Virus record (IMG/VR): IMGVR_UViG_3300006810_000111
Coordinates: 1 to 41,529 of that record
Length of the DNA: 41,529 nt
Strand: one strand, 5' to 3'
From: a virus
In this document: positions 5,868 through 30,340 of the stretch, piece by piece
Numbering within the stretch: the first letter of the stretch is position 1
How the letters are laid out: every line of letters starts with the position of its first letter
Translations under genes and position numbers: made by a program
Notes under the pieces: generated by a model
What the model was told of the DNA's origin: nothing
Database searches by the model: none
The model's input: only the letters and a program-made list of their open reading frames with translations

Positions 5868-6188
5868 ATGTCTGAAGCTAAAATTGAGTATCCACAAAAG
5901 TTTAAAGATAAGGTGTTTAACAACCTTAGATTTGCTGTTGGAGATATTAGATTACTCATGTCCGCAATAGAAAGCGGGAGAGACAATGTTGTGCGCTATA
6001 TAATAGAACAAACTCTAGATGATCCTGATTTATATATCAGTGATGAAATTCTAGATGATGGTTCTAGAAGAATAGCTAACGCAAGAATACACACGCATAA
6101 AATGCGGCAAGAAATATACAACGAGTATATGGAATTATTAACTGAAACTTTAGATAAACAACATGTCAGAAGAAAATTACTACGCTAA
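5868..6188 (+). CDS. Hypothetical protein, 106 aa, in recombination module
   Basis: A helical, acidic protein of unknown family located between the resolvase and exonuclease genes. It starts 2 nt after the previous stop and overlaps the next gene by 26 nt. Segment RYIIEQTLDDPDLYISDEILDDGSRRIANARIHTHKM is predicted helical. No catalytic or metal-binding motif is evident. Context suggests an accessory factor of replication or recombination. Confidence 0.55.
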   Translation: MSEAKIEYPQKFKDKVFNNLRFAVGDIRLLMSAIESGRDNVVRYIIEQTLDDPDLYISDEILDDGSRRIANARIHTHKMRQEIYNEYMELLTETLDKQHVRRKLLR

Positions 6189-11782: not shown

Positions 11783-14700
11783 TTATTCATCTTCATTAAA
11801 ATATTCTTGCTCTATCCAATCGGACATTCCGTAGGATGTATCTAAATCTTTCTCTGTAATAACTGTCCACTTATATATCTGATTAGTGAACGGGAATACT
11901 TTAGCCCATTTATGTAAAGGATGATCTCCTCTGTAATTATCTTTTAGCATGTATCTTTGTGTACCATCTACAGCTCTTGTAAAATCAAATATAGTTTTTA
12001 AAGCTGGTGTAGGGTCCTTGAATACACTAATAAATGTAGTGGGACTTCTATAGTAACTTAAATCTTGCTCTACTCTGTATAGTATATTTATAGAAGCCAT
12101 TAATAATGGTTCAATTGGATCGTCATCATCAGTCCCTTCTGCTAAACTCTTAAGCATAATACCTAAAGCAAGAATAGTTGCCTGCACTTTTATTGCAGAT
12201 AAAGTTTTCTTTAAGTTTATTGCATCTATATTGTCATCTACACCACTAAGTATGCTTTCAGAAGATTGTCTTGTAACTCTCTTCATTAGTAGTTTCATTA
12301 ATATTTTAGAAGAAGATTTTATTCCTACATCAAAAATACTATTATATCTACCTTTTGTGTATCTACCTAATTGGTCATTCCACACTTTTTTACTATACCT
12401 CGCGTTAAACCCTTCAAAGGCCCATGTTCTAAACATTGTAAACAAAAGATTAATGTCTTTACTTTTTATCTTTGTAAGAGAGTTAGGGTCGTAGTTACCA
12501 TGGAGTTTTTTATTCATCTCAATAGTAGCATCTCTAAACTTAGTGTATGAATTTTTAGTGGTTGCTCCTAAATTATTGAAATCCCATTCTTTTTGGTATC
12601 CAAACTCATTTACATTCCAAGTACCGTCTGCATTAAATGCTTCATATAAATTTCTAACATTACCTTGTAGATCTGTAACAGGAGTGTTAATCATTTTAGC
12701 TACAGCTCCCATACCTTGCACAATAAATTCTGTAGACTGTTGTATGTACATAGGACTAAGCTTACCTAGAAATTTAAATTTCTTTTTACCTCTTACATCT
12801 CCTTTACCATAAGTTATATCTCGCATTTCAAAAAGAACATTCATTCTCTTCATTATAGCTCCTGCTTTACTTGCAGAAGTATTAGTTGCAGATCGTAACA
12901 TAATAGCTAAAGACTCTGCAAGCTGTCCACTAGTAAAATCTTCTTCACCAGATGCGTGAACTACAGATGCTAGCATACCAAACCCAACGTTAGCTATACC
13001 TGCAGATGCATTCCAACCTAATCCTTTAAGTTGTGTGTAGCTAATAAATCCTCTAATTAATTTGTGGAAACTAAATGCTTTAATATCTAATTCTTTAAAA
13101 TCATTTTCTAATAACTCTGCTTCAGCGTTAAATTGTGCTTGAGTTATTTTACCGTCCACTAAATCATCATTTAACTGATCGTATTCTTTTTTAAGATCTT
13201 TAGCTTTTCTATATCTAGCTCTCATGTCTGTACTTAGACTTCCAGGTAGCTCTAAAGAAGTTTTACCTACTTGCTCTCTAGATCTTCCATACATAATAGC
13301 TTGCTCACTATAATCTAAAGCTTCTTGTATTACTTGGGGCCCAGACTTGATAGTTATATTTTTATTTGTACCCCAACGTTTAATTTTTTTACCTGAAGAA
13401 TCTAAGTAAGGCTTAGTTGCTTCTCTAACTGTACGCATCAATATGTTTACAAGAGGTTCTGCTTCTGACTTAAATTTATAATTTACAGACATACCTGCAA
13501 ACATAACCATCACTCTCTCTAAATCAAATGCTCTGTCTTCTAAAGCAACATCTTCAGATCCTAAGAATCTTAACGGTACTTTAGATATAGGTACACCTCT
13601 CTCATCAAGCTCTGCTTTTAGGCCTTCATTTTCTCTATTTAAACCTAAAGTTTCATCGGCAAACAAAGCTCCATACAGTTGAGTGTCTTTTCCTAAATAA
13701 GAAAGTGCAGCTACAATACCTTTATTGCTATATTCTTCTAATAAATCTTTTTGTATACTAGGGAAGAAGTTTTCAGACATTCCATTCACTGCTACTTCAG
13801 GTAAGTAACTCTTAAATTGAGACATTTTATCTGTGTAAAATGCGTAGAATGAAGATAATTCTTTGTTATTTTCTATTGTAGAAAACTCTTCGTTAATATA
13901 CATATCAACTTTAGGGTGTGTCACAGTATATTTATAACCTGCAGTACCAAATGTAATATTTGTAGGCGTTGTATTATATCTTTGTTCTAAATAGAATTCA
14001 GGGTTGTTTTTATTAACCCATCTCTTATGAATAGCTGCTGCAGTTTCTGTTAATGTCATACCTATAGCTGGTTTAATAACACCTTCAGCTAAATCGGCAG
14101 CCACTTTTCTTTTGTGTGCATTTTCTTCTAGATTGTATCTAGCTAAACCATCTTCAGCTTGCCCTATAATATCTTGAGCAGAGCCTTCACCAATAGTTTT
14201 ATTAAGATACTCAATGTATTCTTTTTTAGACTTTGCATCTGAAGTACTGTGAGTATCTTTTACCCAAAATCTAATGTCAACAGCTATCTCCATTCCATTT
14301 TTAGCATCATACATAGATGCAAAAGATTCATACCTCTCTCTTTTTATTTGATCAGGTGTAAGTCTAGTAGAGCTCATAATACTTTTTAACTGCTTTCCGT
14401 GCAGTTCATGTATTCTCTGTCTTTCTTTATAATAAGATTCTTTAAACTTAGAAGCAAAATAACCTGTAGGCTTACCTTCATCATCTTTTTGTAAGAATAT
14501 ATCAGTGGATAATCCTAAAGACTCAAGCTCTTTATTTAAATCTTTAAATCTTTTTTGTATTTCTAGTACTGTATTTAAAGTGGCATCTTCTGCGTTTCTA
14601 GCCACTCTCTTTAAAGCTCCATCTGTTGCTCTTGCAATAGGACTAGTAAACCCAGCAGCATCTATAAAGTTACCTCTAAACCAACCTTCGTCTTCCATGT

Positions 14701-17700
14701 TTAAGAACGCCATGTCATCGTCTGTTAAAGGCTCTCCACTTTGGTTTTCTACATAAGATTTAACCCATTTTTTAGTTTTAGCTGCTAACGTAAGACCAAC
14801 ATCTTCTGCTATAGCTCCTACTTGTGCAAACACCTTTCTTGTAGGATTGTTCTTATCTTCTGCTTGCGCTTCAGACAATAAGTGTTTAGTGTTTTTAAAA
14901 CTCCATATATCTACAAGTCTATTAGCATCTTTAATTTCTTGTAAAGAGATCTGTGGCCTATCTAAAATATTCTTAGCCCAGTCTAGTTGACGTATAGCTA
15001 CATCTTCAATAACAAATGTGTTATTCCCTTCTTTTAGTCTTTCAACATCCTCTTTTAATGCCTCTATTTGAGAATCTATATAAATCCTTTTATCTACAGA
15101 TAGTGCTAAAGTTTTTCTACGCTGTAAAGATTTAATTCTACCGTTTAAACCTTGAATTATCTCTGCAATCTCTCCTTTAGCGTTTACAGGCATATCCATA
15201 GAGTCAGATACTATAGAGTAATCAGTTGCTCCTGACTCGTGTATAAGTTTATCTACCTCATCTTGGAATGCTTGTACAGTCTCGTAATTGTTTTTAATAG
15301 CTTTCAGAACTTTATCTTTACCGTGCATTTCAATGTAATCATTGTAAATAGGTAAATATCTAGTAGCTACTTCTAGTACAGATTCATAAGATTTTTGATC
15401 TTGAGGCGTAACAACTTGTTTACTTTCTACAGGACCTGCTTGGTGATTAACTGCATTCCGTATAGAAGCTAAAGGAGCTGTAGTATGATGATATGCTTTC
15501 ATCAAAGTTACATTTTTTTCAGCTCTTGTTATTGCTGTGTATAACCATCTAGTAGGATCAAATTTACCTTGACCAGACCAATTATGATTAACATACACAG
15601 TCTCCCACTGAGATCCTTGTGATTTATGCCCTGTAATAGCATACCCATAGTACGCTAATATTACACTTTTAGGAACAACTTTTTGTACTCTTCCTTGTAC
15701 TTTAGCTTTAACAAGAAAAGGTTCAAAGAAATCTAATGTTTCTTGTGCTTGCACAGGGTCTTTTAATCTATCCCAAGGCTTTTTACCAAATAAAACTTTA
15801 TTTATTTGTTGATGCACTATGCTGGCATCTTTAGCGTCAGGGAATAATATAATCGTATTACCTTTTTCATCTAACACTGCTTGAACTGTTAATGCTGTAG
15901 TTCTTTGCTTTTCTCCTTGAGGAGTGTATGCAGGCATATATATTACAGCTTTTTCAGGTTGTTTAGGATGTTTAGTGTATGTTTTATCTTTATTTCTACC
16001 TAAAATTTCAGAATTTGCTACAGTATTGCTTTTTTTTCCAAACTCACTAATAACATCTACTTCTGAAGAGTTAGCTACAGATATTAATATTTCTCCATCT
16101 TCTATAATGTCAGCATCAGGCCCAAACAAAACAGCTCTTGCTTGGTTGTTTGCTTTTATTCTATCTGGGTTACCAGAAGTTATCATTATAACATCTTTAT
16201 CCTGTTTAAGTTCTGTTAACCATGCAGTTTGTGCATCTACTGTGCTAGTAACTTTAAAGTTAGGAACAGATTCAGAAGGAATTGTAATGCTTTTTGTATT
16301 ACGCATATTAGTTGCTACAGTTAATACAGGATTGTCTTGCACCTGTCTTTTAACTTCAGTCATTTCTATTTTATGCGAGTATTCTTTTTCAAATATTTTA
16401 GGATCTACATCTCCTTTACTTAGTACTGGAGGTAATTGGAAGCCATCTCCTATATATATACTTTTTAAACCTAGATCTTGAACTTGTCTTAAATTTTGTA
16501 GCATTTCGTTACTTAACATAGAAGCCTCATCCATTATATGAATAGAATTTTCTAAGTCCATATCGTCAAATCTATCGTAATCTAACTCAAATCTACCGCT
16601 ATCTGCGTCAGGTTCTCCTGTTAAGAATCCGTGATTAGTGGTTGCTTCCACTGATCGTAGCCCCACTAATTTTAATTTTTGATTTATAACTAAAGCAGCT
16701 TTATTTGTAGGAGCAGTTACTATAATATTTTTGCCTACAGATTCTGCATACTTTATTATATTTTCTATAATAGTAGTTTTACCTGTACCTGCGTACCCTG
16801 CAAGAAGCATTTCTGATGTGCTATCATTATTTATAAAGTCAGAAGCCATAAGTAAGGCTTTTTCTTGATCTGCTGTATAGTCAATAGCATTTCTTCTTTC
16901 TTCTAATATTTGTCTATCTTCATTAGAGAAAGACTTTTCTTCTACAATAGCTCCTGTATCATTATTAAACCTAAACTCTTCTAATAACCTTTGTTTTAAA
17001 TAAGTATAAGTTTGAGGAGCTTTTTCTTTAAGTTTTGCTAAACCCGTACCAAATCCATCTTTAGGAAACACTAGTTCTCTACCATCAGCTTTTATTTTAG
17101 CTATGTCAGAATCAATAACATCTTTATTAGATTGTAAATCATTATCAGACATAAATGCAGCAGCACTGTTATTAGGTTGAAGCTTAGTGGCTATTCCAAA
17201 AGCATTTTCATTATTTCTAATTTGTGCTTGTCCTCCTGTACCTTTTCTTTGTGTGTTATCTCCAAATACATATATCTTATCAGGATTAGCTTTTACATCA
17301 GCATTTGTATATCTAGATACAACTTCTACAGTCTCAACAACTTCTTCAGCTTTTGCAGCAATTTCTTCTTGCACTTTAATTTTGTCAAGTTCTTTTACGT
17401 CTTGTGCAGCTTGTTGTACTTTATCTACAGGCGTTTGCTCAGGAGATGTAACTATAACTTCTCCAGTAGGATTTCCGTTACTGTCCATAACTAATGTAGC
17501 ACCGCCAAGAATTCCTGCAAGCTCTCCTGTATCTTTTTCAGGAGTTCTTTGGTTTTCTTCAGCTATTTGCTCCTCTACTACTGCATCTTTCAGTTGTAAG
17601 AACATTAACATTTCATTAAGCCCTACATCTAAAGCGCTACCCTCTCTAACATCAAATCCTAACTGTTTAGCTAAAGCTTTGTAATATGTTTTAATAAGAT

Positions 17701-20700
17701 TTTTAATTTTTTCAAATAGATTTTGATCTTTTTGATATATAATATTATTTAAAAACTCTTGCACATACTTGCTCTCTGCCATACCTGCTACAAGCTCTTT
17801 AGGGTTTGTTAAAGCATAAGCAATTCTTGCATTTCTATTTTCTTCTCTAGTTGTTCTATTTTGCTTATAAGTTGGATTTGTTTCAAACTCAGATTTAGCT
17901 TTAACAAGCATAGCATCCATTGCTCTTTTAAATCTCTTTGCATGGACAGACGTATCCTTTCCCACTAAAGCAGCTACTGTAAAGTAGTGCACAGTTTCAT
18001 GTAAAAATGTTTCTGCTCTAAATGCCTTAGTAGCTTTTGCTGCTTGAAAAGAGCCTTCGTATACTGTAATATTAAACTTTGCGTTATTATAGCTACCTAA
18101 TATATATTTAGTAGGCTCTCCTTCTTTTTTTCTTTGTTTTACTGCGTCAGAGTATACAACACCTTTAAATGGCACAGACTTATAAATACCTTTAGTTTTT
18201 AAAAGTTTTGCTAATTCTACAGTACCTTCTTTACCGTCTGTAATAATTCTATCTAAAAGATTGTCTAATTGATTTTCGTAATCAGGTTTTCTATTTTCAT
18301 ACTCTTCTAGCATTCCCACTAAAACCTCTTCAGGAACACCTAATTGCTCTCCTTCAGGGAAAGGTTCTTCATTCCAGGGAACTCCAACAGACGGCATTCC
18401 TGTAGGTATAGGATCTTTAATAGTTTTTATTACTTTGTTTTCTTCTAAGTACGACGCTGTGTTTCCAGAGTAATCGTATTCAGTACCAAACTTATCGCCT
18501 TTAAGATCTATTCTTTCGTAGTAATTTCCTCCTTCAATTTCCCCTTTGTGAGAAAATAAATAGTAGGTTTTTCCTACAGGGTACACTAAAAACTCTTTGT
18601 AATATGTGTGCCCTTCACTTATATATATAAAAGGACTAAATGCCTCTAAATTATTAGCTTCTTCTATTGTAGGCATTACTAACCCAGTAATAGTTTTGTT
18701 AGGGTCTACTCTAAATTTAGCATACTTCTTAATTACACTATTTTTCATATCAATAGATGTAGCTAACCAAGGCTTATGCTGTAACACTTGTTTTAAGTAT
18801 GTTATAGTGTCTGTTATAGCTTCGCTTTTAAACATGTCATTGCTTAAGTGCTTATTTAAGCCTAACTTTTCTATACCTCCAAATGGTATCATACTTAAGT
18901 AAGACGAGGCTTTTTGTGTACCTCCGTTTAAGTATGCTGCTATAATTAAATTTTTACCAAATTCTTGAGCTTCTACACTACCTAGTAGTAATGCAGTAAA
19001 CCCTCTTTGCATAGCTAAGTTTTCAATATTACTGGACCAGTCAACAGTTACTGCTGATTTACCTTTATTTTTGTTTGTAGACAGTACAGGTTTAAGCGCC
19101 ATAACAAACTCATTAGTTTTACCCCAATCTGTTTTTTGAGCTTCAATAGTTTGTACAGCTATATTATTGTCTTCTACAAATAATTTTCTACGTAATTCAT
19201 ACAAACTAGTTGCTTCTTGTGTTTCTCTAACAAACACTTGCTCTATAGCATAGCTCCACCCATTAGCAACTACTGCGTCAAATATAGTGGACATAACATT
19301 TTCAGATACTTCTGTAGAGTCTGTGTTGTTTAAGAATACTTCTTCAAAATTAGACATAAAGTCTGAGCTTACAGGGTACACATTTGCAAATAAATTAAAT
19401 GCGCTCTCTAAGTATTTAGCAAGATTAGCATATTCAGTGTTTGCCAATCCAGAAAGACCAGTTAGTCTAGCTGCCGCTTCATCAGATGCTTTGTCTTGTT
19501 TAAACACTTCAAATCTATTAATGTAACTTTTTGCAGAAGCCATTGTAGATCCTAATCCTTTTACTGAAGGGTCATTAACTGCTTTTCTAGGCTTGTTAAG
19601 TCTATTAGAGTCTTCTTCAAACTTTAAAAACTGCTCAAAAATAACTAATTGTTTTCTATAGTATTCTTTTGTTTTTTCTAACCCTGAATTAGGAGCTCCT
19701 ATTATAAGTTCTTTTTTAAGTAGTTTAGACTGAAATAACATTTTAAACGCTGCATTACTTTTGTCTGTATATTCTTCGTAAGCAGAATCTATTTCTTTAA
19801 CATTAGCAACGTCTGATAGCTCTTGATATTTTGACTGCACAATTTTGACTGCCTCTGCTTTTCTGTCGAACACATTTTTATCTGACAGCCCAGGAACTAT
19901 TTTTTCTAACTCTCTTGTATAATCCCTCATTATTTCTTGAGGGAACATATAGCCAATATTTTCTATGTTTATACCTCCTTGAGCCATAAATAGCGCTGTA
20001 GGTAAAGTATCCATAGTAAAGTATAGCTTACCTAGAGTAGGTTTATTTGCATTATCAATAGCGGCATTCATTGTAATATTAATTACATCTGAAGACGTTC
20101 TAGTTTTCTTTACATCATTTTCGTAGTAAACTGTTTCGTTTTGATTAGATAAATTGCTAAACCTCAGCTCTTTAAAGTACTCACCTTTTTTATTTTTATT
20201 TTCTCCGTAGAATCCTCGCAAATATCTTTTTATTTGCTTCTTTTTCTTCATTTCTACTAAATAGATATTCATTCCTTCCATTATAGCATTAAGGGTGTTG
20301 GCTTGCGCTCCAGGCCCAATTAACACTTGTCCTGCTCTTTGAGAAATATTATCTTTTATCTGATCTATTCTAGATATTGCAGTTCTAGTTCTAGTATTTT
20401 TATTTAGTATAGAATCGACATCATCTGCTATGTTTTCTAATGCAGGATCATCAATACCTTTTGACATCATATCAAAAGATTTTTTATTAGTTGTAAGTAC
20501 AGTCCAGAATATGTCTCTTAACTCATCTAATAATAAGTTTTCATCTGTAAATTTATTAGGGTATTTTTTCCTATCTCTCCTATAAACTCCTTTCACCTCT
20601 CCGTTCTCGTTTTTATTAACGATATATTGAGACATTAAAGTATTAAGAGTATCGACATCAAAATCACTACCCATCTGCGGAAGCATTTCATCAGGAACTA

Positions 20701-20752
20701 TCACTGTTAATTCCATGTTAGAAGGTAGGAAACCTACAATTTCTAATGGCAT
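11783..20752 (-). CDS. Giant virion RNA polymerase, part 2: catalytic DFDVD barrel, HExxH domain, VFGDN/GGQA domain, SF1 helicase, C-terminal internal-protein region
   Basis: A 2989-residue ORF whose coding frame extends upstream through 28 more codons to the TGA at 20837. Near the N terminus, DFDVD (D30, D32, D34) is the metal-binding triad of DPBB RNA polymerases; GYRIPYQNIGSEM just before the ATG is the RxP-type motif, as in crAss-like phage polymerases. Further domains: LHETVH (about 916-921) with ELVAG (about 985), a gluzincin-like site; VFGDN/GGQAQIR/KDGFGTGLA (about 1147-1260), a conserved phage domain I believe is DUF7831; an SF1 helicase (about 1270-1760) with GYAGTGKTT, MDEAS, GDGFQLPP, GHKSQGSQWETVYV and YTAITRA, closest to Dda/RecD2. 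The remaining about 1200 residues are helical with hydrophobic patches, likely ejected internal protein. Confidence 0.8.
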   Translation of the reverse strand: MPLEIVGFLPSNMELTVIVPDEMLPQMGSDFDVDTLNTLMSQYIVNKNENGEVKGVYRRDRKKYPNKFTDENLLLDELRDIFWTVLTTNKKSFDMMSKGIDDPALENIADDVDSILNKNTRTRTAISRIDQIKDNISQRAGQVLIGPGAQANTLNAIMEGMNIYLVEMKKKKQIKRYLRGFYGENKNKKGEYFKELRFSNLSNQNETVYYENDVKKTRTSSDVINITMNAAIDNANKPTLGKLYFTMDTLPTALFMAQGGINIENIGYMFPQEIMRDYTRELEKIVPGLSDKNVFDRKAEAVKIVQSKYQELSDVANVKEIDSAYEEYTDKSNAAFKMLFQSKLLKKELIIGAPNSGLEKTKEYYRKQLVIFEQFLKFEEDSNRLNKPRKAVNDPSVKGLGSTMASAKSYINRFEVFKQDKASDEAAARLTGLSGLANTEYANLAKYLESAFNLFANVYPVSSDFMSNFEEVFLNNTDSTEVSENVMSTIFDAVVANGWSYAIEQVFVRETQEATSLYELRRKLFVEDNNIAVQTIEAQKTDWGKTNEFVMALKPVLSTNKNKGKSAVTVDWSSNIENLAMQRGFTALLLGSVEAQEFGKNLIIAAYLNGGTQKASSYLSMIPFGGIEKLGLNKHLSNDMFKSEAITDTITYLKQVLQHKPWLATSIDMKNSVIKKYAKFRVDPNKTITGLVMPTIEEANNLEAFSPFIYISEGHTYYKEFLVYPVGKTYYLFSHKGEIEGGNYYERIDLKGDKFGTEYDYSGNTASYLEENKVIKTIKDPIPTGMPSVGVPWNEEPFPEGEQLGVPEEVLVGMLEEYENRKPDYENQLDNLLDRIITDGKEGTVELAKLLKTKGIYKSVPFKGVVYSDAVKQRKKEGEPTKYILGSYNNAKFNITVYEGSFQAAKATKAFRAETFLHETVHYFTVAALVGKDTSVHAKRFKRAMDAMLVKAKSEFETNPTYKQNRTTREENRNARIAYALTNPKELVAGMAESKYVQEFLNNIIYQKDQNLFEKIKNLIKTYYKALAKQLGFDVREGSALDVGLNEMLMFLQLKDAVVEEQIAEENQRTPEKDTGELAGILGGATLVMDSNGNPTGEVIVTSPEQTPVDKVQQAAQDVKELDKIKVQEEIAAKAEEVVETVEVVSRYTNADVKANPDKIYVFGDNTQRKGTGGQAQIRNNENAFGIATKLQPNNSAAAFMSDNDLQSNKDVIDSDIAKIKADGRELVFPKDGFGTGLAKLKEKAPQTYTYLKQRLLEEFRFNNDTGAIVEEKSFSNEDRQILEERRNAIDYTADQEKALLMASDFINNDSTSEMLLAGYAGTGKTTIIENIIKYAESVGKNIIVTAPTNKAALVINQKLKLVGLRSVEATTNHGFLTGEPDADSGRFELDYDRFDDMDLENSIHIMDEASMLSNEMLQNLRQVQDLGLKSIYIGDGFQLPPVLSKGDVDPKIFEKEYSHKIEMTEVKRQVQDNPVLTVATNMRNTKSITIPSESVPNFKVTSTVDAQTAWLTELKQDKDVIMITSGNPDRIKANNQARAVLFGPDADIIEDGEILISVANSSEVDVISEFGKKSNTVANSEILGRNKDKTYTKHPKQPEKAVIYMPAYTPQGEKQRTTALTVQAVLDEKGNTIILFPDAKDASIVHQQINKVLFGKKPWDRLKDPVQAQETLDFFEPFLVKAKVQGRVQKVVPKSVILAYYGYAITGHKSQGSQWETVYVNHNWSGQGKFDPTRWLYTAITRAEKNVTLMKAYHHTTAPLASIRNAVNHQAGPVESKQVVTPQDQKSYESVLEVATRYLPIYNDYIEMHGKDKVLKAIKNNYETVQAFQDEVDKLIHESGATDYSIVSDSMDMPVNAKGEIAEIIQGLNGRIKSLQRRKTLALSVDKRIYIDSQIEALKEDVERLKEGNNTFVIEDVAIRQLDWAKNILDRPQISLQEIKDANRLVDIWSFKNTKHLLSEAQAEDKNNPTRKVFAQVGAIAEDVGLTLAAKTKKWVKSYVENQSGEPLTDDDMAFLNMEDEGWFRGNFIDAAGFTSPIARATDGALKRVARNAEDATLNTVLEIQKRFKDLNKELESLGLSTDIFLQKDDEGKPTGYFASKFKESYYKERQRIHELHGKQLKSIMSSTRLTPDQIKRERYESFASMYDAKNGMEIAVDIRFWVKDTHSTSDAKSKKEYIEYLNKTIGEGSAQDIIGQAEDGLARYNLEENAHKRKVAADLAEGVIKPAIGMTLTETAAAIHKRWVNKNNPEFYLEQRYNTTPTNITFGTAGYKYTVTHPKVDMYINEEFSTIENNKELSSFYAFYTDKMSQFKSYLPEVAVNGMSENFFPSIQKDLLEEYSNKGIVAALSYLGKDTQLYGALFADETLGLNRENEGLKAELDERGVPISKVPLRFLGSEDVALEDRAFDLERVMVMFAGMSVNYKFKSEAEPLVNILMRTVREATKPYLDSSGKKIKRWGTNKNITIKSGPQVIQEALDYSEQAIMYGRSREQVGKTSLELPGSLSTDMRARYRKAKDLKKEYDQLNDDLVDGKITQAQFNAEAELLENDFKELDIKAFSFHKLIRGFISYTQLKGLGWNASAGIANVGFGMLASVVHASGEEDFTSGQLAESLAIMLRSATNTSASKAGAIMKRMNVLFEMRDITYGKGDVRGKKKFKFLGKLSPMYIQQSTEFIVQGMGAVAKMINTPVTDLQGNVRNLYEAFNADGTWNVNEFGYQKEWDFNNLGATTKNSYTKFRDATIEMNKKLHGNYDPNSLTKIKSKDINLLFTMFRTWAFEGFNARYSKKVWNDQLGRYTKGRYNSIFDVGIKSSSKILMKLLMKRVTRQSSESILSGVDDNIDAINLKKTLSAIKVQATILALGIMLKSLAEGTDDDDPIEPLLMASINILYRVEQDLSYYRSPTTFISVFKDPTPALKTIFDFTRAVDGTQRYMLKDNYRGDHPLHKWAKVFPFTNQIYKWTVITEKDLDTSYGMSDWIEQEYFNEDE

Positions 20753-20836: not shown

Positions 20837-20839
20837 TCA
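20837..20839 (-). other. In-frame TGA within the RNA polymerase catalytic barrel
   Basis: The reading ...FEKNG-TGA-LFLNPNKVPKEVRQLIGYRIP... is one uninterrupted frame on both sides. No ATG, GTG or TTG occurs in the 28 codons between the TGA and the ATG at 20752, and starting at that ATG would delete GYRIPYQN. The catalytic D30 codon lies 58 codons after the TGA. Without readthrough the barrel would be split. Error, mutation or recoding are all possible. Confidence 0.85.
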
Positions 20840-23800
20840 ACCATTCTTTTCAAATAAGAATATGTAATTATCTTTACTATCTTTTGCTTGTATATCTAGC
20901 TCGTTACCATCTTCGTCTTTATAGAAAAACTTAACCATAACTTGGCCAGGAATAACTTCATTTTTTTCTGCATCCCATCTAGGGCCTTGCAACCCTTTAG
21001 ACTCGTCAAAGCTTGTAGTTGTTATAAGCTGATTACGCATATTTCCTTTTAGCTCAGACCAAGCTCCTGTAGCCTTAAACCCTGCAGATGAAGACTGTAC
21101 AAATGTAATACCTGGCATTTTAATGTCAGTTATTTTATTTACAATACTAAGCATCAAACCTTCTAGCATTTTTCTAGATTGTATAAATGGTAAGGGTACA
21201 ATAGTTCCTGAACCATCTTCTTTTAAATCTAAAGAAAATACATCATTAATACTCCAATTTCTAGCTTTTGCCTCTTCTTTTAAGGCCTCCACTAATTTGC
21301 TTAGCTGTATTTCACTTCCTTGTACTGCTAATGTTTCAGTGTCTGCATTTTCTACTATATTACCGTATTTTTTAAGAAACTTATCGTGTTTTATTTTATA
21401 GATTTGACTTATAATCTCTTGTTTACGAGCTCTAGCTTCTTCACCAGTTTTAGTTTCTTCATCAATAGTAAACTCTTCTTCTAATAGACCTGTAAACATT
21501 ACTTTAAGTTTCTGCGTAGAAACTTTTATAAGCTGACTGTCTTTAACGTTTTTCTCTTGTTGGATACCTAAACCATCTCTAAATAAAGTAAATTTAGAAG
21601 ATTTCATACCTTCCATTAATTTTTCTACAGACAATACATTTCCATCAGAATCATAAGCATTCATTCTACTAAACGGAGATAATTTATCTGAAGTTGCATG
21701 CCCTGTTCTTTGCACTCCTGTGTTTTCCATAGCAATACGTATGTTGTCTAGTTGCATATCGCTAGTCATATCAGGTAGCATTGGCAGAGACATTGATTTT
21801 CTATACACTCTAGAAAGTCTTCCTGTAGAAGGATCTGGGTGCATAAAATCGTATTGTGGTTTTACAGGTTTAAGAGCAAAAGCCATTTCTTGCTCCGTTA
21901 GCTCGTAGTAATTAGTGCTGTTGTTTTTGTCTTTTATAGCATTATCTATTTTTTTAGATATAGATGTATGCATTTCAGTGGATATTTGCCCAAAGTATTC
22001 TAACATATCTATGTGCTCTTGCACTGTAGTAAGTTCTAATGCATCTGTACTTTCTATAGATTTATTTGTAGGGCTACCATAAGGGCTGTTACCTCCAAAT
22101 AGTTTGTCGTAATATTTGTAGTTTTCAGAAAATGATAACCTATCGTTAAATGTAACTGCCGAATACTCTCTTTTAGTGTAGTTACCTTGAGTTTTAGGTG
22201 CATCAGAACCTATTAAACGTTTTTGGTAATTAGTTCTACCAGAAGCTATTTTTGCAGCTGCTGTAGACCCTTTACCATTGTAAGCTTCTGCTAAATCTCC
22301 ACCAAATAATATTTGTTGCTCTATATTAGATATAATGTAATTCAATTCTAGATCTCCTGCAGCAACCACTGCTTTATCTTCTACACTTCTTTCTTTACCT
22401 AAAGAATCCATGTACCCTGAGTCTAGTTTAGTTTTACTCTCTTCTACTATTCCAAGCTCATTCCATTGCTCTACAGACTCATTTATAATGTTTGTAGCCC
22501 ATAAGTTTATTGCTCTTCTTAGTACAGGCTCAGAATTTGTAATGTCTAGCATTGGAATGCCGTCAATACCTTCTGAAGGGTAAACTTGATTTACCTCTTG
22601 TTCTTCAAAAGTTTTATCTAGCTCATGCTTGTTTAAAAAAGAGAAAAAGTGGAAATACTGTGAACCTTCTCTGTATTTAGTTTTTTGTAAATACTCAGGG
22701 TCAGATTGTATTTTACTTTGTGTGCTGTAGATTCTTTTTATTTCTCCCATAGCATAGCTATACAAGTAATCTTCTGCAGTTTTTAGAATTTTAGTGGCTA
22801 CACCATTTTCTACAATAACCTGATCCTTAAAGTTTATCTTATCATGCTCTATAAGTTCTGATATACCACGGTCAGCTTTAGTTACACCAAAGAAAAGTGC
22901 CTTCTTTTTATTAGAATTTTGGAATAACCAACAAGAATTTAAATCTTGCTGTAATATACCTTGGTGTTTTCTTTTAGATGCAGAATTCTCATTACCAAAC
23001 TTATCTTTTAATGCATCTGCGTAAAGAACCTTAAGAACATTTTTATTTTTAATAATCTTAGGAAGTAATCTACTTACAGACCCCATATGTGTAGACATCA
23101 TTCCGTCTACTAAACTTTTTGCTATATCATCATTATCGTAATTCTCATATAATTTTAAAAGTACGTGCATAGACGTAGTTCCATTATATGGGTATACAGT
23201 TTTACCTTCTCCATCTCTATAAGATATAGAGTATATAGGGTCACCAAATTTAGCAGTTACTTCTGCTAGTTTTAGTATGATACCTTGGAAATTACCTCCT
23301 TTTAAAGGGTTGTTCTTAAATAAAGGTTTTGCATTGTCTTGAACTTCTGGATCGTATTTAACATCCTCTTTTTTAGGTGCATTATTTTTATAAGCACTAA
23401 ATATAAGCCCCATTAATCCTAATCTACTTTTAGGGTCTACTGCAAATCCCCACGCTTGGTCAAGTACTTCGTCACCAATAGTTCTATTAGTTCCTTGTAC
23501 AGGTGTGGCCATATACTTTATAGCTTCTGGCGGCACTGTGATAGACAAACTAGTTAACGTGCTGTGCACTAAATCTGCCATTTCATCAGAAGAATTCTTT
23601 TCTAATATACTTTTATATTTAGAATCCTTAGATATTTTATCGTATTGCTCTCTATAGTTTTTTTCTACAGATGCAACATAATCAGAGTCAATATAAGCTT
23701 CTCCATCTTCCGAGAATTTTACTAAATTTGGATTACTAAATTGTTCTGTAAGCCACCTGTCTTTAATTACGTTACTTTCTTTATTAGCTGCAGAATCTAT

Positions 23801-26800
23801 AATCTCTGCTTTAAAATTACCATTTTTGTCTTTAGAGAACATAGTAACTCTTTGAGATATATAGGCGTTTGCAAACTCAGAAACAAACTCACTTTTTTCT
23901 TGTTCAGTTAATTTGCTATTTATATACTTAGCAATTTCTCTGTACATAGGGTTAGTATCGCTTTTATCATTAAGCTGTTGCAACATTGAGTCTATATTAG
24001 GCAATGACTCACTTAATATTCCTTTTATATTACCCCAAACTTCATCAAAAGTATAAAAAGTAGGTAGTTTTAAATAATTAAGTTTTAAGCTACCGTCTCT
24101 GTTTCTTTTAACTATCTGAGACATTTTAATTTTTATACGCTCAGAAGCTTTCTTTTTAGGGTTAGACTGCCATCTAGCTTCATCATTAAAGTTATTTTTT
24201 TCTAGATCTTTTTTATTACCTCTAGAACCTTCTTTAATGTTCATTGTAGACTTTAACTGCTCTTTTGTAAGTTCAGAAACTTTATCCCATTTATCTATAA
24301 TTATACTTATATCCCTTCGCATTATTTCAGGAAGAGTGTCAAAATTTGGTAAATTCTTAACTTTTACAAATACATTTTTAGCATTTTCTAATGCTTTGTC
24401 TACACTTATGTTTTCGTCTGCTAAAAAGTCTTTAGTTACGTGATAAGTGGTAAAATTTAATATTTCTTTTTGTCTGTTGAAATCTATATTAGCAAAGTCA
24501 ATAAATAAAGGCTCTAACCTACTAGATATTTTATTATCAACTTTTAATTCTTCTTCTGCAGCTTCAAAAGGTATTTCAGGTTGAGCTGCACCTTCTTGTG
24601 GGACTAAACTAAAACTTAAGTCATAATCTGCATCGTCTATTAAGTCTTGGAATAAAGTATTAGGATCTAGCTGATTTGACTCCTTAGAATCTTTTTCACG
24701 TAGCCCATATTCTTTACGTAGACCTTTAACTATACTTTTTTCATATTCTTTTAGTTCTGCAGGATCTTTTTCAAGCAGCTCTTTATGATATGCCTGGATG
24801 TCTTGTAGATCCTTTCTTATTTCCATTAAGATTTTTGGGAAGAGTTTTCCCCACTTACTTTTGTCTTGAGTGTGCGTAAGAGTAGCATTGCCTGTAGCAA
24901 GAAGCTTTTGTTCTGCGTCAGGATTTTGTTCAAAAGACCAAAATAGTATATCTTCCATAACACCTTCAGACCTTTCGTCCCAGTTAGCAGTATTTAAACC
25001 TTCTATTTGTTTTCCTAGCCTTTTAGCTTCAGCTCCTGTAGCATTTTGTAATTTTTTTACTAACTTTTTACCTTTTTCGTTAAGTTTTGAAAATGGCTCT
25101 ATTGTAGTATATAACCCAGGAGTAGTATATTCTATTTTTGTAGCTTGAAAAGCTCCTTCTGGTGTTCTAAAAGAAGCGTCATACACCCCTCTAACACTGC
25201 CTCCTTCTATTCTTATTTTTCTTTCTGCAAAGTTACTTAGCTCTGTATTTTCGTTTGTTCCTGCGTATATATTTATTACCTGATTTGAGCTGATAGATTC
25301 TTTTTTACTTAGAGCTTTAGCAGCTTTAACTGATTCACTCTGCGAAGCAAGTTGCAATATATCAGCTTCTGTTAACTTTAAAAATCTATCTACAGTTCTT
25401 AAAGTTCCGCTAGATTTACCTTCTCGTTTATTTAAACTATTAATAACATGTTTCCAATCAGTAAATCCTTGTTCTTTAGCAAAGTTTTCTTTTTTCTTAA
25501 ATTCAGGATTACTTAATTCTTTAATTCTTTTCTTCTTTGCATTTATTTGTTTTATATAAATTTCATCCTGTAGACTTCCTGGATAGCCCCTTTCTCCTGG
25601 CCCAGTTATATTTGGTTTATCAGAAACAGGCATATTTTCTATTTCTTCTATCTCTTGCTTTAATCTTTCAATCTCAGCTTTTTCTGAACTAATTGATACC
25701 TGATTTGGCTTAGGAGATTCTTTTTTACTTGGAACAACGCCTTCTTGTTTTAATCTTGGACTTATATCTTTAAAAACATAATTTAAAGCAGTGACAAGTT
25801 CAGGATACTTAGCTATTAAATCTTTAAGTGGTAATTTTTCTTTTTCTTCTACTTCTTTTGTAAAAGTATCTAGAATTTTTTGATGGCCTGGCAGTTGGGA
25901 ATCAAACATAATCCAATTTGCTCGAAATGCAGCACTATTAAAATCATTAATCTCTGTATTTGGACCGCCAGTTAAAAGTATTCCTAAGTCTTTATTATAA
26001 ATATTATCAAGTTGTATTTGTAAATTTTTTCCAGGACTAATGTTAAACTTTTTTATTTTTTGATTTAAGAAGCTTTCCATTGTCTTTTGTCCTTCAGTAT
26101 TCAAATCAAAAGGCATAGTTAATCCAGATGTAGAAGATACTTGATTTGGCTTAACAGATTCTTTTTTAGCTACAGGCTTAGGCTTGCTTGCTGATTTAAA
26201 GTCCTTACTAAACTGTATTACAGGCTGATTAATATATACATACTCTTGCTGCCCATTAGCGTCAGTAAAGCTATTAGTACCATTTATATTTGTTTGTACA
26301 AGCTCAAATGCATACTCATTATAAGATTCGTATTTCTTAGGAGTTACAGTTCCGTCTTCTGCTATTGCAATATCTGTATAGCTTTCATTTACGTTAGCTT
26401 TGTTAATGTTCAATGACGGCAACACTGTTTGTAGTATTTTTCTAACAGCAGCTTCGTTACCTTGGATAGGTAGTACTTTTGATTTAGTAATATCTAAGTT
26501 AGCTGGTATACTATCTGGTTTATTTGTATAGATAACTCTATTCCCTTCAGTAGCTATCATAATAGCATTGTTCTTAGGGTTAACATCAAAGTACACTGTT
26601 TCGTTTGGTTTTTTAGGATCAAACTCAAAGCTATTTGTGTAAGCTATTCTATTTACAAAAGTATATAACGCAGAAGCATTTTTCTTACTAAAATCAAACC
26701 CTAATGCATCAGATATACTTTTAGCTGTAGCAGGGTTTTCTAATGCAGTCGCAGCATACATAATTGTATTTATTTGCGAAGTGTTTAATGGCTTAGTCCA

Positions 26801-29800
26801 TAAAGGAGCTACAAAAGACTCTCCTTTCTTTTTAGTGGGTAGTACTAAACCTATTCTACCGTCACTGTATTCTTTATCGTTTATAATAAAGTCGTCAACT
26901 CTGTCAGAAGAATTAGTTCTCCATCCACCTACTTTTCTAAAAGCTATGGATAAATCTCTCCAACCAGGCATTAAACTTTTAACTCCTTCCCATTCAGTTT
27001 TACCTGTAGGAGTACCATCTTCTGCAAATACAACATTTAAAAACGGAGTACCTGAAGCTACCTCACTTATAGTAGTTGTAACTTCTCCTCCTGCATCTAT
27101 AATATTTTTTCTTAAACTTCGTATCTCTGCTTTTTGGTAACTCCAGTTATCAAAGCTTCCTTTTTGATCTTTTATTTCTTCTACAACATTACGTGCTTGA
27201 CCTGTAGCTAATTGCGCATCTACCCAATTAGTGTCGTGCACATAACCTATAACTTTTTCTTCACCTTGTACGGTAGCTACAATTTCTATAGGTATTTCGT
27301 TTGCATTTATTTCTGCAGGTATTGCTCCGATAGCCTCTTGCACAAAGTCAGAGTATTGCCAAGTAATTTCTTTAGGCATACCTAAATTATCATACACATA
27401 CCTAACACCTTTAGAGCCTGGTTTAACTGTACGTAAAGTTATAGGAGCACCTTTTTGTAAAAAGTTTGGAGACTCTACTTCAGGAACTAATGTTTTAGTT
27501 TTATCTTTAGAGGCTGTTTGTCTTACAAATATTTCTCCACTAGGAGTGTTAATTAATTTAGATACATAGTCTACAGCTAGATATGCCATTGCATTAGCCC
27601 CATCTATTATCTGTTTAGTTCTAATACCTATTCTAGTTTTAGGATTGTTAGGTACAGAATCTTTAGTTTCTTTTGTAAGCTGTTTTTTATCTTGCTCTTC
27701 TGTTAATCCACTTTGAGCCTCATAAGGTATAGAACCGTCTTCATTCTTTTGGTAATTAAAGTTTTTAACTTGTCTATCGCCTTCAGAGTTTTCTCCTATC
27801 GTTTTGTCGTTTACAGCTGCAGATGCTACTTCAGCAGTATTAGAGTTCTCCTCTACTTTATTCTTTTTAGCTGTTTCTTTGTTAGTTTTTTTATTTTGTA
27901 TAGATTCCTGCAGTGCAGCCTCTTGCTCTGGAGATAACTGGCCTTCAAGCATAGCTTGGTACGCCTCCATAGATTCTATATCTCCTTGGCTAATAACTTT
28001 ATTTAATTGCTCATCTACATTAGGTGCTTCTCCTTCTAGTTTAATTTCTTCAGGAGCTTGCTCACCACTTTTTAATATATCATCTAAATTAACTTGAGCT
28101 TCTTCTTTTGCTTGTATATTTTTAGATGTACTATCTTCTCCTTCTACTTTATTAGAAGTAGCTTTTTGTTTTTTAGCTTCAACTTTCTTTTTAATATTTG
28201 CAGCTTTTTCCTCTGCTTTTTGCTTTTTACGATTAGATTTCTGAGCTTTTTCTACTTTTTTAGCTCTTTTTGTTATGTTATTTGCTTCTTTCTTAAGCTT
28301 AGAAGGGTTGTTTTTAAATTCTGTATACCTATCAACTTCTTTAGCGTATCTAGAGTTTGCATCTATTACATTGTACTCTGCTAAAGTTTTTTGGTACAAA
28401 GGATTGCCAGGTTTAAATCCTTCGTCTATAATAGTGTTTAACTGCTCTTGAGTTGCAGACTCAGGTAAATTATCTATTACTTTATCTCTTTGTTTAACAG
28501 CTGCATCTCTCTTAGACTGAATGTCTTCTATTCTAGCCTTAATGTCTGCACCGTTCTCTCCTTTATCTAAAGTACGATCTTTATTATTCTTAATGTCTTT
28601 AGATAACTCGTTGTACTCTTCTGTAAGTTTATCTATAGCAACATTATAAGCTTCTACTTTAGTGCTTAATTCTATAGCTTCATTAAGTTCTGCAGGAGAT
28701 CCTTTAGCATTTAAATACTTACTAACTTCTACGCCAGCCTCCGAAAGAGATGTATTAGCTTGCTCTACCTCATCGTTTAATAAGTTTTGTACATACTTAC
28801 TTCTTGTAAGTATTTCTGCTCTAACAGGGTCATTAAATAAGTATATGTTAGCGTTATACTCTTGCTCATATTCTAGAGCTTTATCTATAGCGCGTTGTGC
28901 TTTCTCTTTATAGTCAGCATCCATACCTCTTTTATCTGCATCTTCTGCAGACATATTCTTTACATCTTCAAAATTCTTAATCATACTTTCGTATGTACCT
29001 TTTTGAGCATTGGCTCTAAAAGTTTCAAAGAGAGCTACTTCATTTAAATCATTGTATTTTTTTGTATCGTTAGCAAAAGCAGCGTTAGCTTTCTCTTGTT
29101 CAAGCTTTACACGTCTTGCTTTACCGTCAGTAAAAGCTAAAGAATATGCACTAAACATACCACCCCCAATAAGACCTGATAAACCTTCAGTTACACCTTC
29201 ATAAGACATAGCATGTTCAGCCCATCGATCTACTCCTGTAGAGTAATCGTTTTCATAGTATCCTTTTTCTATACCCACTTGTCTAGCTCCTTCTTTTTCT
29301 AAGTACCCAGTCCAAACTTCTTCACTGTATTCTTGTAGAGGTTCTAGCGTTCCTATTGCAGCTCTTTGTGCTGTTTTTTTAGCACCTGATGATGCTATTC
29401 CAGATAACGCTCTTGTAGTAGAAGGGCTTCTGAATAACATATAGTTAGTAGGGATTTCAAATAACAAATTCCATCTACCTTGTGTAACTACATTAGCAGC
29501 GTCGGCCCCTGCTTTTATTCTAGCTCTTTTATCTATTTCTTCGTCACTTGCATCTGGGTCTAAGTTTCTAAATATCTTAACGTACTCTGCTTTATTCTCT
29601 GCAAATACATTTCCTGCAGAGTGCATGTGTTCATAATAATTTTGTGTAATACCCGTGAATGCAGCGGAAGTTCCTCTACTAATTCTTTCTATATTTTTAC
29701 CTTGATTTGCAAGTTGCGCTGCAGTTTTAGTTGCATTAAGTGATTGCGCTGTCCTACTTAAAGCAAAGCTAGTTGCAGACCCTAATAGTCTACCAGCTAT

Positions 29801-30340
29801 CATACCGTAAGGGTAGTAACCTAAAGATCTTATCACTTGATCTCCATTATTGACCCACCATCCTGAACTCAAAGGAGTTGGTTCGTCTTCTATATCTCCT
29901 TTGTATACTGGTAAAGCTGCATCTATATCTTCTTCAATACTTTTAAGATAATCATTAAAATTATTTCTAAAATCTTCTTCACCTTCCTGAATGTCTCCAA
30001 TAACATAATTAGATACATAATCTACACCATACCCAATAGGCTCTAAGAATGCAGGTACAGTCTTAGCTAAACCTCTAGCAAAAACATTAAATCCTCGATC
30101 AAAACCTGATTGGCTTTGTCCAAGGAGTCTATCCATGTCTGCGTATAAACTTGGTGAAAGGCCTTCATCTTTAAAAGAATTCAGCTGATCTTGACTAAAA
30201 GTGTAAGGAATTTCAGGTAATTGATCTTGACTTTCTATTCTTAATTTTAATAAACCTCTTTCTAACGGGCCCATTTCACTAAATTGTCGGTTGTAGCTCT
30301 CGGCTATATTTCTTTTTCCCGACTTCTTGGGTTGTATCAT
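20837..30340 (-). CDS. Giant virion RNA polymerase, part 1: N-terminal internal-protein region, NADAR cassette region, polymerase N-terminal half
   Basis: A 3167-residue ORF ending at TGA 20837-20839, inside the polymerase catalytic barrel. Residues 1-600 are helical with hydrophobic stretches, like crAss-like internal proteins. About 690-880 is a Lys/Glu-rich flexible region. About 930-1390 contains beta-rich modules (IGYVHDTNWVDAQ). About 1390-1900 is a cassette region with four repeated linkers (KKESxKPNQVS-like), separating two unknown domains and a NADAR domain (about 1685-1845: YAGTNENTELSNFA, TPEGAFQATK, KLLATGNATL, WGKLFPKILMEIRKDL). The C-terminal about 300 residues (LFRDGLGIQQE, PGITFVQSSSAGF) resemble the polymerase region preceding GYRIP in crAss-like phages. 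NADAR proteins hydrolyse ADP-ribose conjugates, including ADP-ribosylated guanine in DNA. Confidence 0.75.
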   Translation of the reverse strand: MIQPKKSGKRNIAESYNRQFSEMGPLERGLLKLRIESQDQLPEIPYTFSQDQLNSFKDEGLSPSLYADMDRLLGQSQSGFDRGFNVFARGLAKTVPAFLEPIGYGVDYVSNYVIGDIQEGEEDFRNNFNDYLKSIEEDIDAALPVYKGDIEDEPTPLSSGWWVNNGDQVIRSLGYYPYGMIAGRLLGSATSFALSRTAQSLNATKTAAQLANQGKNIERISRGTSAAFTGITQNYYEHMHSAGNVFAENKAEYVKIFRNLDPDASDEEIDKRARIKAGADAANVVTQGRWNLLFEIPTNYMLFRSPSTTRALSGIASSGAKKTAQRAAIGTLEPLQEYSEEVWTGYLEKEGARQVGIEKGYYENDYSTGVDRWAEHAMSYEGVTEGLSGLIGGGMFSAYSLAFTDGKARRVKLEQEKANAAFANDTKKYNDLNEVALFETFRANAQKGTYESMIKNFEDVKNMSAEDADKRGMDADYKEKAQRAIDKALEYEQEYNANIYLFNDPVRAEILTRSKYVQNLLNDEVEQANTSLSEAGVEVSKYLNAKGSPAELNEAIELSTKVEAYNVAIDKLTEEYNELSKDIKNNKDRTLDKGENGADIKARIEDIQSKRDAAVKQRDKVIDNLPESATQEQLNTIIDEGFKPGNPLYQKTLAEYNVIDANSRYAKEVDRYTEFKNNPSKLKKEANNITKRAKKVEKAQKSNRKKQKAEEKAANIKKKVEAKKQKATSNKVEGEDSTSKNIQAKEEAQVNLDDILKSGEQAPEEIKLEGEAPNVDEQLNKVISQGDIESMEAYQAMLEGQLSPEQEAALQESIQNKKTNKETAKKNKVEENSNTAEVASAAVNDKTIGENSEGDRQVKNFNYQKNEDGSIPYEAQSGLTEEQDKKQLTKETKDSVPNNPKTRIGIRTKQIIDGANAMAYLAVDYVSKLINTPSGEIFVRQTASKDKTKTLVPEVESPNFLQKGAPITLRTVKPGSKGVRYVYDNLGMPKEITWQYSDFVQEAIGAIPAEINANEIPIEIVATVQGEEKVIGYVHDTNWVDAQLATGQARNVVEEIKDQKGSFDNWSYQKAEIRSLRKNIIDAGGEVTTTISEVASGTPFLNVVFAEDGTPTGKTEWEGVKSLMPGWRDLSIAFRKVGGWRTNSSDRVDDFIINDKEYSDGRIGLVLPTKKKGESFVAPLWTKPLNTSQINTIMYAATALENPATAKSISDALGFDFSKKNASALYTFVNRIAYTNSFEFDPKKPNETVYFDVNPKNNAIMIATEGNRVIYTNKPDSIPANLDITKSKVLPIQGNEAAVRKILQTVLPSLNINKANVNESYTDIAIAEDGTVTPKKYESYNEYAFELVQTNINGTNSFTDANGQQEYVYINQPVIQFSKDFKSASKPKPVAKKESVKPNQVSSTSGLTMPFDLNTEGQKTMESFLNQKIKKFNISPGKNLQIQLDNIYNKDLGILLTGGPNTEINDFNSAAFRANWIMFDSQLPGHQKILDTFTKEVEEKEKLPLKDLIAKYPELVTALNYVFKDISPRLKQEGVVPSKKESPKPNQVSISSEKAEIERLKQEIEEIENMPVSDKPNITGPGERGYPGSLQDEIYIKQINAKKKRIKELSNPEFKKKENFAKEQGFTDWKHVINSLNKREGKSSGTLRTVDRFLKLTEADILQLASQSESVKAAKALSKKESISSNQVINIYAGTNENTELSNFAERKIRIEGGSVRGVYDASFRTPEGAFQATKIEYTTPGLYTTIEPFSKLNEKGKKLVKKLQNATGAEAKRLGKQIEGLNTANWDERSEGVMEDILFWSFEQNPDAEQKLLATGNATLTHTQDKSKWGKLFPKILMEIRKDLQDIQAYHKELLEKDPAELKEYEKSIVKGLRKEYGLREKDSKESNQLDPNTLFQDLIDDADYDLSFSLVPQEGAAQPEIPFEAAEEELKVDNKISSRLEPLFIDFANIDFNRQKEILNFTTYHVTKDFLADENISVDKALENAKNVFVKVKNLPNFDTLPEIMRRDISIIIDKWDKVSELTKEQLKSTMNIKEGSRGNKKDLEKNNFNDEARWQSNPKKKASERIKIKMSQIVKRNRDGSLKLNYLKLPTFYTFDEVWGNIKGILSESLPNIDSMLQQLNDKSDTNPMYREIAKYINSKLTEQEKSEFVSEFANAYISQRVTMFSKDKNGNFKAEIIDSAANKESNVIKDRWLTEQFSNPNLVKFSEDGEAYIDSDYVASVEKNYREQYDKISKDSKYKSILEKNSSDEMADLVHSTLTSLSITVPPEAIKYMATPVQGTNRTIGDEVLDQAWGFAVDPKSRLGLMGLIFSAYKNNAPKKEDVKYDPEVQDNAKPLFKNNPLKGGNFQGIILKLAEVTAKFGDPIYSISYRDGEGKTVYPYNGTTSMHVLLKLYENYDNDDIAKSLVDGMMSTHMGSVSRLLPKIIKNKNVLKVLYADALKDKFGNENSASKRKHQGILQQDLNSCWLFQNSNKKKALFFGVTKADRGISELIEHDKINFKDQVIVENGVATKILKTAEDYLYSYAMGEIKRIYSTQSKIQSDPEYLQKTKYREGSQYFHFFSFLNKHELDKTFEEQEVNQVYPSEGIDGIPMLDITNSEPVLRRAINLWATNIINESVEQWNELGIVEESKTKLDSGYMDSLGKERSVEDKAVVAAGDLELNYIISNIEQQILFGGDLAEAYNGKGSTAAAKIASGRTNYQKRLIGSDAPKTQGNYTKREYSAVTFNDRLSFSENYKYYDKLFGGNSPYGSPTNKSIESTDALELTTVQEHIDMLEYFGQISTEMHTSISKKIDNAIKDKNNSTNYYELTEQEMAFALKPVKPQYDFMHPDPSTGRLSRVYRKSMSLPMLPDMTSDMQLDNIRIAMENTGVQRTGHATSDKLSPFSRMNAYDSDGNVLSVEKLMEGMKSSKFTLFRDGLGIQQEKNVKDSQLIKVSTQKLKVMFTGLLEEEFTIDEETKTGEEARARKQEIISQIYKIKHDKFLKKYGNIVENADTETLAVQGSEIQLSKLVEALKEEAKARNWSINDVFSLDLKEDGSGTIVPLPFIQSRKMLEGLMLSIVNKITDIKMPGITFVQSSSAGFKATGAWSELKGNMRNQLITTTSFDESKGLQGPRWDAEKNEVIPGQVMVKFFYKDEDGNELDIQAKDSKDNYIFLFEKNG
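24666..24701 (-). repeat. Domain-linker repeat, copy 4 (most diverged)
   Basis: A 36-nt copy of the linker repeat, encoding EKDSKESNQL after the NADAR domain. The shared TGATTTG and AGAATCTTTTTC cores are recognisable. It lies 609 nt (203 codons) from copy 3, in the same reading phase. Confidence 0.6.
25275..25310 (-). repeat. Domain-linker repeat, copy 3
   Basis: Encodes KKESISSNQV directly before the NADAR domain. About 28 of 36 nt match copy 2, including ACCTGATTTG and AGATTCTTTTTTACTT. Spacing to copy 2 is 420 nt (140 codons), in phase. Confidence 0.75.
25695..25730 (-). repeat. Domain-linker repeat, copy 2
   Basis: Encodes KKESPKPNQVS between the two unknown cassette domains. 31 of 36 nt match copy 1. 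Spacing to copy 1 is 441 nt (147 codons), in phase. Confidence 0.8.
26136..26171 (-). repeat. Domain-linker repeat, copy 1
   Basis: Encodes KKESVKPNQVS after the Lys/Pro stretch KSASKPKPVA. It is the first of four in-phase copies that bracket domain cassettes in the giant protein. Confidence 0.8.

Follow-up and report, generated by a model that had tools for sequence, protein, structure and literature searches.

crAss-like phages carry a giant virion RNA polymerase (RNAP), represented by gp66 of phi14:2 (PDB 6vr4), which enters the host with the DNA (PMC7886860), and the RNAP-associated proteins of crAss001 (gp47, gp49, and gp50) were found by mass spectrometry to be virion cargo (PMC10172136). 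Polyvalent proteins (Iyer et al. 2017, PMC5512222) are giant multidomain proteins thought to be delivered with phage DNA and loaded with conflict enzymes, and their authors raised recombinational cassettes, by analogy to polymorphic toxins, as a possibility. Polymorphic toxins (Rhs, CDI) combine a fixed delivery part with a variable effector part exchanged by recombination. In T4-type adhesins (gp38), conserved glycine-rich motifs within the gene act as recombination points that swap functional segments, and integrons hold arrays of exchangeable units separated by a repeated DNA element. Phage proteins delivered at the start of infection must counter changing host defences, but how such enzymes are gained and swapped without breaking a giant virion protein has not been clear.

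We present here an analysis of a repeat-delimited domain array in a 41,529-nt stretch of viral DNA (positions 1 to 41,529 of IMG/VR record IMGVR_UViG_3300006810_000111), referred to below as the window. The array lies in a crAss-like virion RNAP that is probably injected into the host. We found no mention of a cassette array or linker repeat in the crAss-like survey (PMC7886860), and the linker DNA is absent from the isolate phage records searched. Relative to polyvalent proteins, the exchange borders, the repeat itself, occupied/empty pairs, and recent cassette transfers are visible here, on an RNAP scaffold. The protein is a very large polypeptide with several domains including conflict-related enzymes (RNAP, NADAR, DUF7831, and a Dda-like helicase; SLOG in one relative), as in polyvalent proteins; delivery with the genome was not measured here and is inferred from the crAss-like literature. 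Relative to polymorphic toxins, the payloads are internal to a polypeptide of about 5,000 to 6,000 aa in the window type, can be tandem, and have no immunity gene seen, and the conserved boundary is a 34-nt in-frame DNA repeat on both sides; in a three-gene type of the polymerase, the next gene is the polymerase subunit. Relative to T4 adhesins, where host-range loops of tail fibres are exchanged, whole enzymatic domains portable between unrelated backbones are involved. Relative to integrons, the units are in-frame domains of one protein. In the papers searched, which exclude most subscription journals, no description of a linker repeat or cassette exchange in virion RNAPs was found. In-gene exchange at conserved motifs and cassette exchange are already described, while a portable in-frame DNA repeat on both sides of whole enzymatic domains in a virion polymerase, with tandem, single, and empty states, appears new.

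The repeat array and its gene

The initial annotation reported four in-phase copies of a 36-nt repeat encoding KKES..PNQVS-like linkers, spaced by 147, 140, and 203 codons, around two unknown domains and a NADAR domain, and this observation was confirmed. All four copies are in frame in a 3,167-aa open reading frame (ORF1), with start-to-start spacings of 147, 140, and 203 codons. Copies 1 and 2 share 31/36 nt, as had been reported, and the other pairs share 23 to 28 of 36. The copies form the top-ranked direct-repeat family of the gene (44 nt, 4 copies). A consensus with up to 3 mismatches finds exactly these four in the window, against 0 in 100 dinucleotide shuffles; because this consensus was drawn from the copies themselves, independent support comes from other phages. 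The DNA-conserved core is about 34 nt, within 2 nt of the positions first reported. The NADAR match scores 52.2 bits against a Pfam cut-off of 35.1, and the other two segments match no known family above threshold. A weak Pfam hit of cassette B to Glyco_hydro_65m (E = 0.005, below cut-off) was rejected. AlphaFold models of cassette A and of cassette X (see below) had mean pLDDT values of 42 to 43, so no fold search was run.

One correction concerns the extent of the gene, which does not end at 20837. ORF1 is the first half of a giant protein that is interrupted by a single in-frame TGA and continued by ORF2. In the closest relative found, contig G003 (also listed as L001), the same protein is one ORF of 5,151 aa; contigs G002 and G009 also have one long ORF, and contig G004 reads straight across the same point. 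We did not distinguish between a natural break, recoding, and an assembly error at this codon. A profile built from window positions 17423-20752 and five homologues hits the crystal structure of the phi14:2 RNAP (6vr4_A, E = 5.3e-129). The catalytic DxDxD motif is present as GSDFDVD in ORF2, with an invariant GSDFD.D pattern (profile columns G28, S29, D30, F31, D32, and D34). A neighbouring 1,409-aa protein, of muzzle type, matches Crassvirales virion structural/stabilisation proteins, including one of phi14:2. First-subunit homologues in Cellulophaga phages phi17:2 and phi4:1 are annotated structural proteins, although the presence of the window protein in virions was not examined. ORF2 also holds an insertion of DUF7831 plus a Dda-like SF1 helicase; in G004 the helicase part aligns but the DUF7831 part does not. 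This second variable site has no linkers and is treated as a separate phenomenon.

Features of the window
Coordinates	Strand	Feature	Supporting evidence
20837..30340	-	ORF1, 3,167 aa, N-terminal (first-subunit) part of the giant virion RNAP protein, carrying the cassette array	63-67% identical to the corresponding parts of the 5,151-aa protein of G003
20837-20839		Single in-frame TGA between ORF1 and ORF2	Sense codon in G003 and G004
11783..20752	-	ORF2, 2,989 aa, continuation of the same protein (RNAP part with GSDFDVD motif, HExxH motif, DUF7831, Dda-like helicase, C-terminal part)	Profile hit to 6vr4_A
26138..26171	-	Linker 1 (KKESVKPNQV, residue 1392), left end of the array	Same position and 30/33 nt as G003 linker 1
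25727..26137	-	Cassette A, 137 aa, unknown domain	No Pfam match; absent from G003
25697..25730	-	Linker 2 (KKESPKPNQV, residue 1539)	27/27 nt identical to the G002 linker core
25307..25696	-	Cassette B, 130 aa, unknown domain	No family match above threshold; absent from G003
25277..25310	-	Linker 3 (KKESISSNQV, residue 1679)	
24698..25276	-	Cassette C, 193 aa, NADAR domain	PF08719, E = 1.1e-13; YbiA 2b3w, E = 1.2e-4; NADAR 8bau, E = 4.5e-4
24668..24701	-	Linker 4 (REKDSKESNQL; EKDSKESNQL at residue 1882), closing linker, starts CGT like other closing linkers	30/33 nt match to G003 closing linker
15389..17407	-	Second insertion (DUF7831 + Dda-like SF1 helicase), without linkers	Absent in G003
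3229..3909	+	Sak4-like ssDNA annealing protein, candidate recombination agent	phrog_2872, E = 3.1e-70; 90-100% identical in 8 of 10 linker-phage records searched
6163..7143	+	Exonuclease VIII (RecE)-like PD-(D/E)XK nuclease, candidate partner of the annealing protein	phrog_412, E = 7e-37; DUF3799, E = 7e-16; 70-82% identical in 8 of 10 linker-phage records
7669-11071	+	RIIA- and RIIB-like genes next to the virion RNAP block	phrog_612, E = 2e-68; phrog_609, E = 1e-44

Cassette content in related phages

The initial annotation had proposed that the linkers let homologous recombination insert, delete, or exchange domains in frame, making the polymerase a carrier of variable anti-host enzymes, and had predicted that related phages would show different numbers or kinds of domains between conserved linkers. 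The prediction was borne out in several phages. In G003, which is 63 to 67% identical to the window outside the array, everything between linkers 1 and 4 is replaced by one unrelated 123-aa domain, here called X. Linker-pattern scans of a viral sequence collection gave further phages. Contig G001 carries a SLOG domain (cpYpsA, PF12694, E = 3.8e-26) between two linkers, whereas contig G010, about 97% identical in DNA around the site, has a single linker there and no SLOG. Contigs G005 and G009 share 88 to 100% DNA identity (mostly 95% or more) on both sides of the site, but G009 holds X and G005 holds two unknown domains, Y plus Z. Contigs G006 and G011 are one family (72 to 76% amino acid identity) with different content: an unknown domain plus Y in G006, against an unknown domain followed by a linker and an E3-binding domain (PF02817, E = 4.9e-13) in G011. 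Contigs G007 and G008 have the same arrangement as G006; the three come from three metagenomes. Contigs G012, L241, and G002 add further linker sites, and in G002 the linker precedes a segment with a PD-(D/E)XK-like motif, seen by eye and only weakly by Pfam. No homing-endonuclease or splicing domain was found in any cassette scanned by Pfam.

In all, about 21 clear linkers were found in 11 contigs, counting the window and leaving out the duplicate contigs G007 and G008. All lie in the first-subunit part of the polymerase gene, at two places: between the N-terminal helical part and the following conserved domain, and after that domain. The hosts of these phages are probably Bacteroidota. All relatives are metagenomic contigs, mostly incomplete, and some cassette ends lack a clear linker (the right end of Z in G005 and the right end of the segment in G002; the left ends in G006 and G011 are degenerate). 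A DNA profile scores the linkers at 32.8 to 50.9 bits and nothing else in 400 kb above 24.7. Of the weaker hits, those in G009 and G012 (21.6 and 22.5 bits) are out of frame and were treated as chance, while in-frame hits in G002 (24.7) and G011 (24.4) may be decayed linkers.

Cassettes were shared between unrelated backbones. X is 85% identical in protein and 90.6% in DNA (427 bp) between G003 and G009, whose backbones are 24 to 27% identical, and sits at the second site in G003 and the first in G009. Y is 100% identical in protein and 96.2% in DNA (338 bp) between G005 and G006, whose best backbone alignment is 35%. In both cases, the block of DNA similarity starts in one linker and ends in the next. 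Two phage pairs match in DNA at the linker alone within this otherwise unalignable region: 30/31 nt for the window and G002 and 28/28 nt for G011 and G005.

The G010 empty-site linker matches G001 linker 1 in its left 15 nt (15/15, against 12/15 for linker 2) and G001 linker 2 in its right 15 nt (15/15, against 10/15 for linker 1). Near the cassette, G001 and G010 stay at 93 to 100% identity up to the linker; after the second linker, a tract of about 280 bp (G001 about 10660-10940) falls to 58 to 83% before identity returns to 97 to 100%. This is what crossing over within the linker, with a second crossover downstream, would leave, the tract probably being the far end of the same recombination event.

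The bacterial and archaeal genome collection gave 87 loci with the linker pattern, and every in-frame match lies in an unrelated protein, as chance would give. Other viral matches (KKESAKTDK in four near-identical contigs, KKESGITNQY, KKESSKTNKQ, KKESGFTNKT, and others) lie in unrelated proteins and are not flanked by cassettes. Isolate phage records hold no relative of the linker DNA above noise, nor of cassettes A, B, or X.

DNA-level conservation and candidate recombination agents

Where two lineages encode the same amino acid in a linker, they use the same codon in 91.6% of cases, against 56.2 ± 3.4% expected from each genome's codon usage (maximum, 68.6% in 2,000 resamplings). Rare codons are kept, namely CCA for proline (21 to 36% usage) and AAG/CAG (14 to 30%), and wobble positions are as conserved as second positions (0.844 versus 0.848). 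Part of this is ascertainment, because several contigs were found with DNA patterns that fix the AAAAAAGAATCT half, but the CCA and AAG/CAG wobble bases were left free in the patterns that found all but G012. The two outer linkers, in the same place in the window and G003, are 60/66 identical, while flanking DNA is about 71% identical (P = 9e-5). The conserved element has edges at about 34 nt, with the consensus A-nnT-RAAAAAGAATCT-nnn-ARnYCAAATMAG-nTA.

The window encodes a Sak4-like annealing protein and a RecE/exonuclease VIII-like nuclease. Both are carried by eight of ten linker-phage records searched, even where the polymerases are only about 25% identical, and the other two records are short fragments. 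The 90 to 100% identity of the annealing protein among such phages points to recent genome mosaicism of the early region. Annealing systems of this kind can use homologies of a few tens of bases, so a 34-nt repeat between diverged genomes is a suitable and perhaps the only shared target in this gene.

Interpretation of the array

We consider it likely, with good confidence, that the repeat is a DNA recombination module built into the first-subunit part of a crAss-like virion RNAP gene. Each in-frame copy also encodes a short [KE]KES..[PS]N[QK] linker between folded domains. In this view, when two such phages meet in one cell, strand exchange inside a linker would insert, delete, or replace the cassette between two linkers without breaking the reading frame. 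The sequences themselves establish the linkers and their conservation as DNA, the different numbers and kinds of cassettes between the same linkers, the empty site with one linker, and the same cassettes in unrelated backbones and at two sites with borders in the linkers. It is by inference only that we name short-homology recombination by the phage's own Sak4 and RecE-like proteins as the agent, have the payload travel into the host with the virion RNAP, and have payloads such as NADAR and SLOG act early against host ADP-ribose-based defence. The evidence is comparative, with no recombination event, injection, or payload activity observed. The interpretation in the initial annotation is supported, including its naming of a polymerase, with two parts unproven: that recombination is homologous rather than site specific, and that the payloads act against the host. 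Both findings that it had named as contrary to its reading were absent: relatives do not have fixed content, and coiled-coil or low-complexity bias cannot explain linker DNA conserved at rare codons.

A dedicated site-specific recombination site, making the array a gene-internal, integron-like system, appears unlikely. The conservation of DNA rather than protein, the sharp edges of about 34 nt, and the single orientation and frame of the cassettes would fit it, but halves of one linker segregate with different flanks and the central triplet varies freely, which fits homologous exchange within the repeat. No inverted-repeat core or attC-type boxes were seen by eye, and no tyrosine or serine recombinase was seen among the ten window ORFs scanned; as the window is only part of the genome, these observations leave the comparison with integrons undecided. 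It is also unlikely that the linkers are kept purely for a protein reason, as flexible spacers or as protease cleavage sites releasing payloads after injection, with cassettes exchanged by ordinary illegitimate recombination. The linkers do sit between domains, are charged and probably disordered, and an HExxH motif is present in ORF2. However, amino acids vary (EKDSKESNQL to KKESASTNQI) while rare codons are fixed, cassette homology begins and ends in linkers, and the empty-site linker is a hybrid of the two occupied-site linkers. A cleavage role in addition is not excluded. Chance, low-complexity similarity, or metagenomic chimaeras made at a repeat are very unlikely despite the AT-rich, Lys/Glu-rich sequence and the metagenomic origin of the contigs, given the shuffling and profile results, the shared arrangement of G006, G007, and G008, and the presence of X and Y in frame in several backbones with sequence divergence inside X.

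A broader reading, which we offer only tentatively, is that the repeat is under selection for recombination and turns one essential virion gene into a cassette-loading platform shared by a pool of crAss-like phages, so that each phage can reload the enzymes it injects, a gene-internal counterpart of integrons for a first-strike arsenal. The exchange points can be read directly here, with occupied and empty sites, repeated transfers, and a plausible recombinase in the same genomes. The repeat may also serve as a search tag, in that whatever lies between two linkers is a candidate early anti-host factor, giving a list of unknown domains (A, B, X, Y, Z, and others) worth testing for counter-defence activity.

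Most cassettes with linkers on both ends have no recognised function, and only NADAR and SLOG have a known anti-defence rationale. NADARs remove ADP-ribose from guanine, reversing the modification made by the anti-phage toxin DarT1 (PMC11543638), an activity not assayed for the window domain, and viral NADAR and SLOG domains have been proposed to counter ADP-ribose signals of bacterial immunity (PMC9503650). NADAR is also fused to giant RNAP-type proteins, without the linkers, in Crassvirales phages cr126_1 and cr131_1; in cr131_1 it is followed directly by a DUF7831-like domain, and several in-frame stops suggest recoding. First subunits of the three-gene type (L236:3038-8608, L079:8276-14011, and L181:14073-19622) start with a peptidase-like segment (TDFTITSA.R...AHFHLEF) that resembles M15 peptidases by eye.
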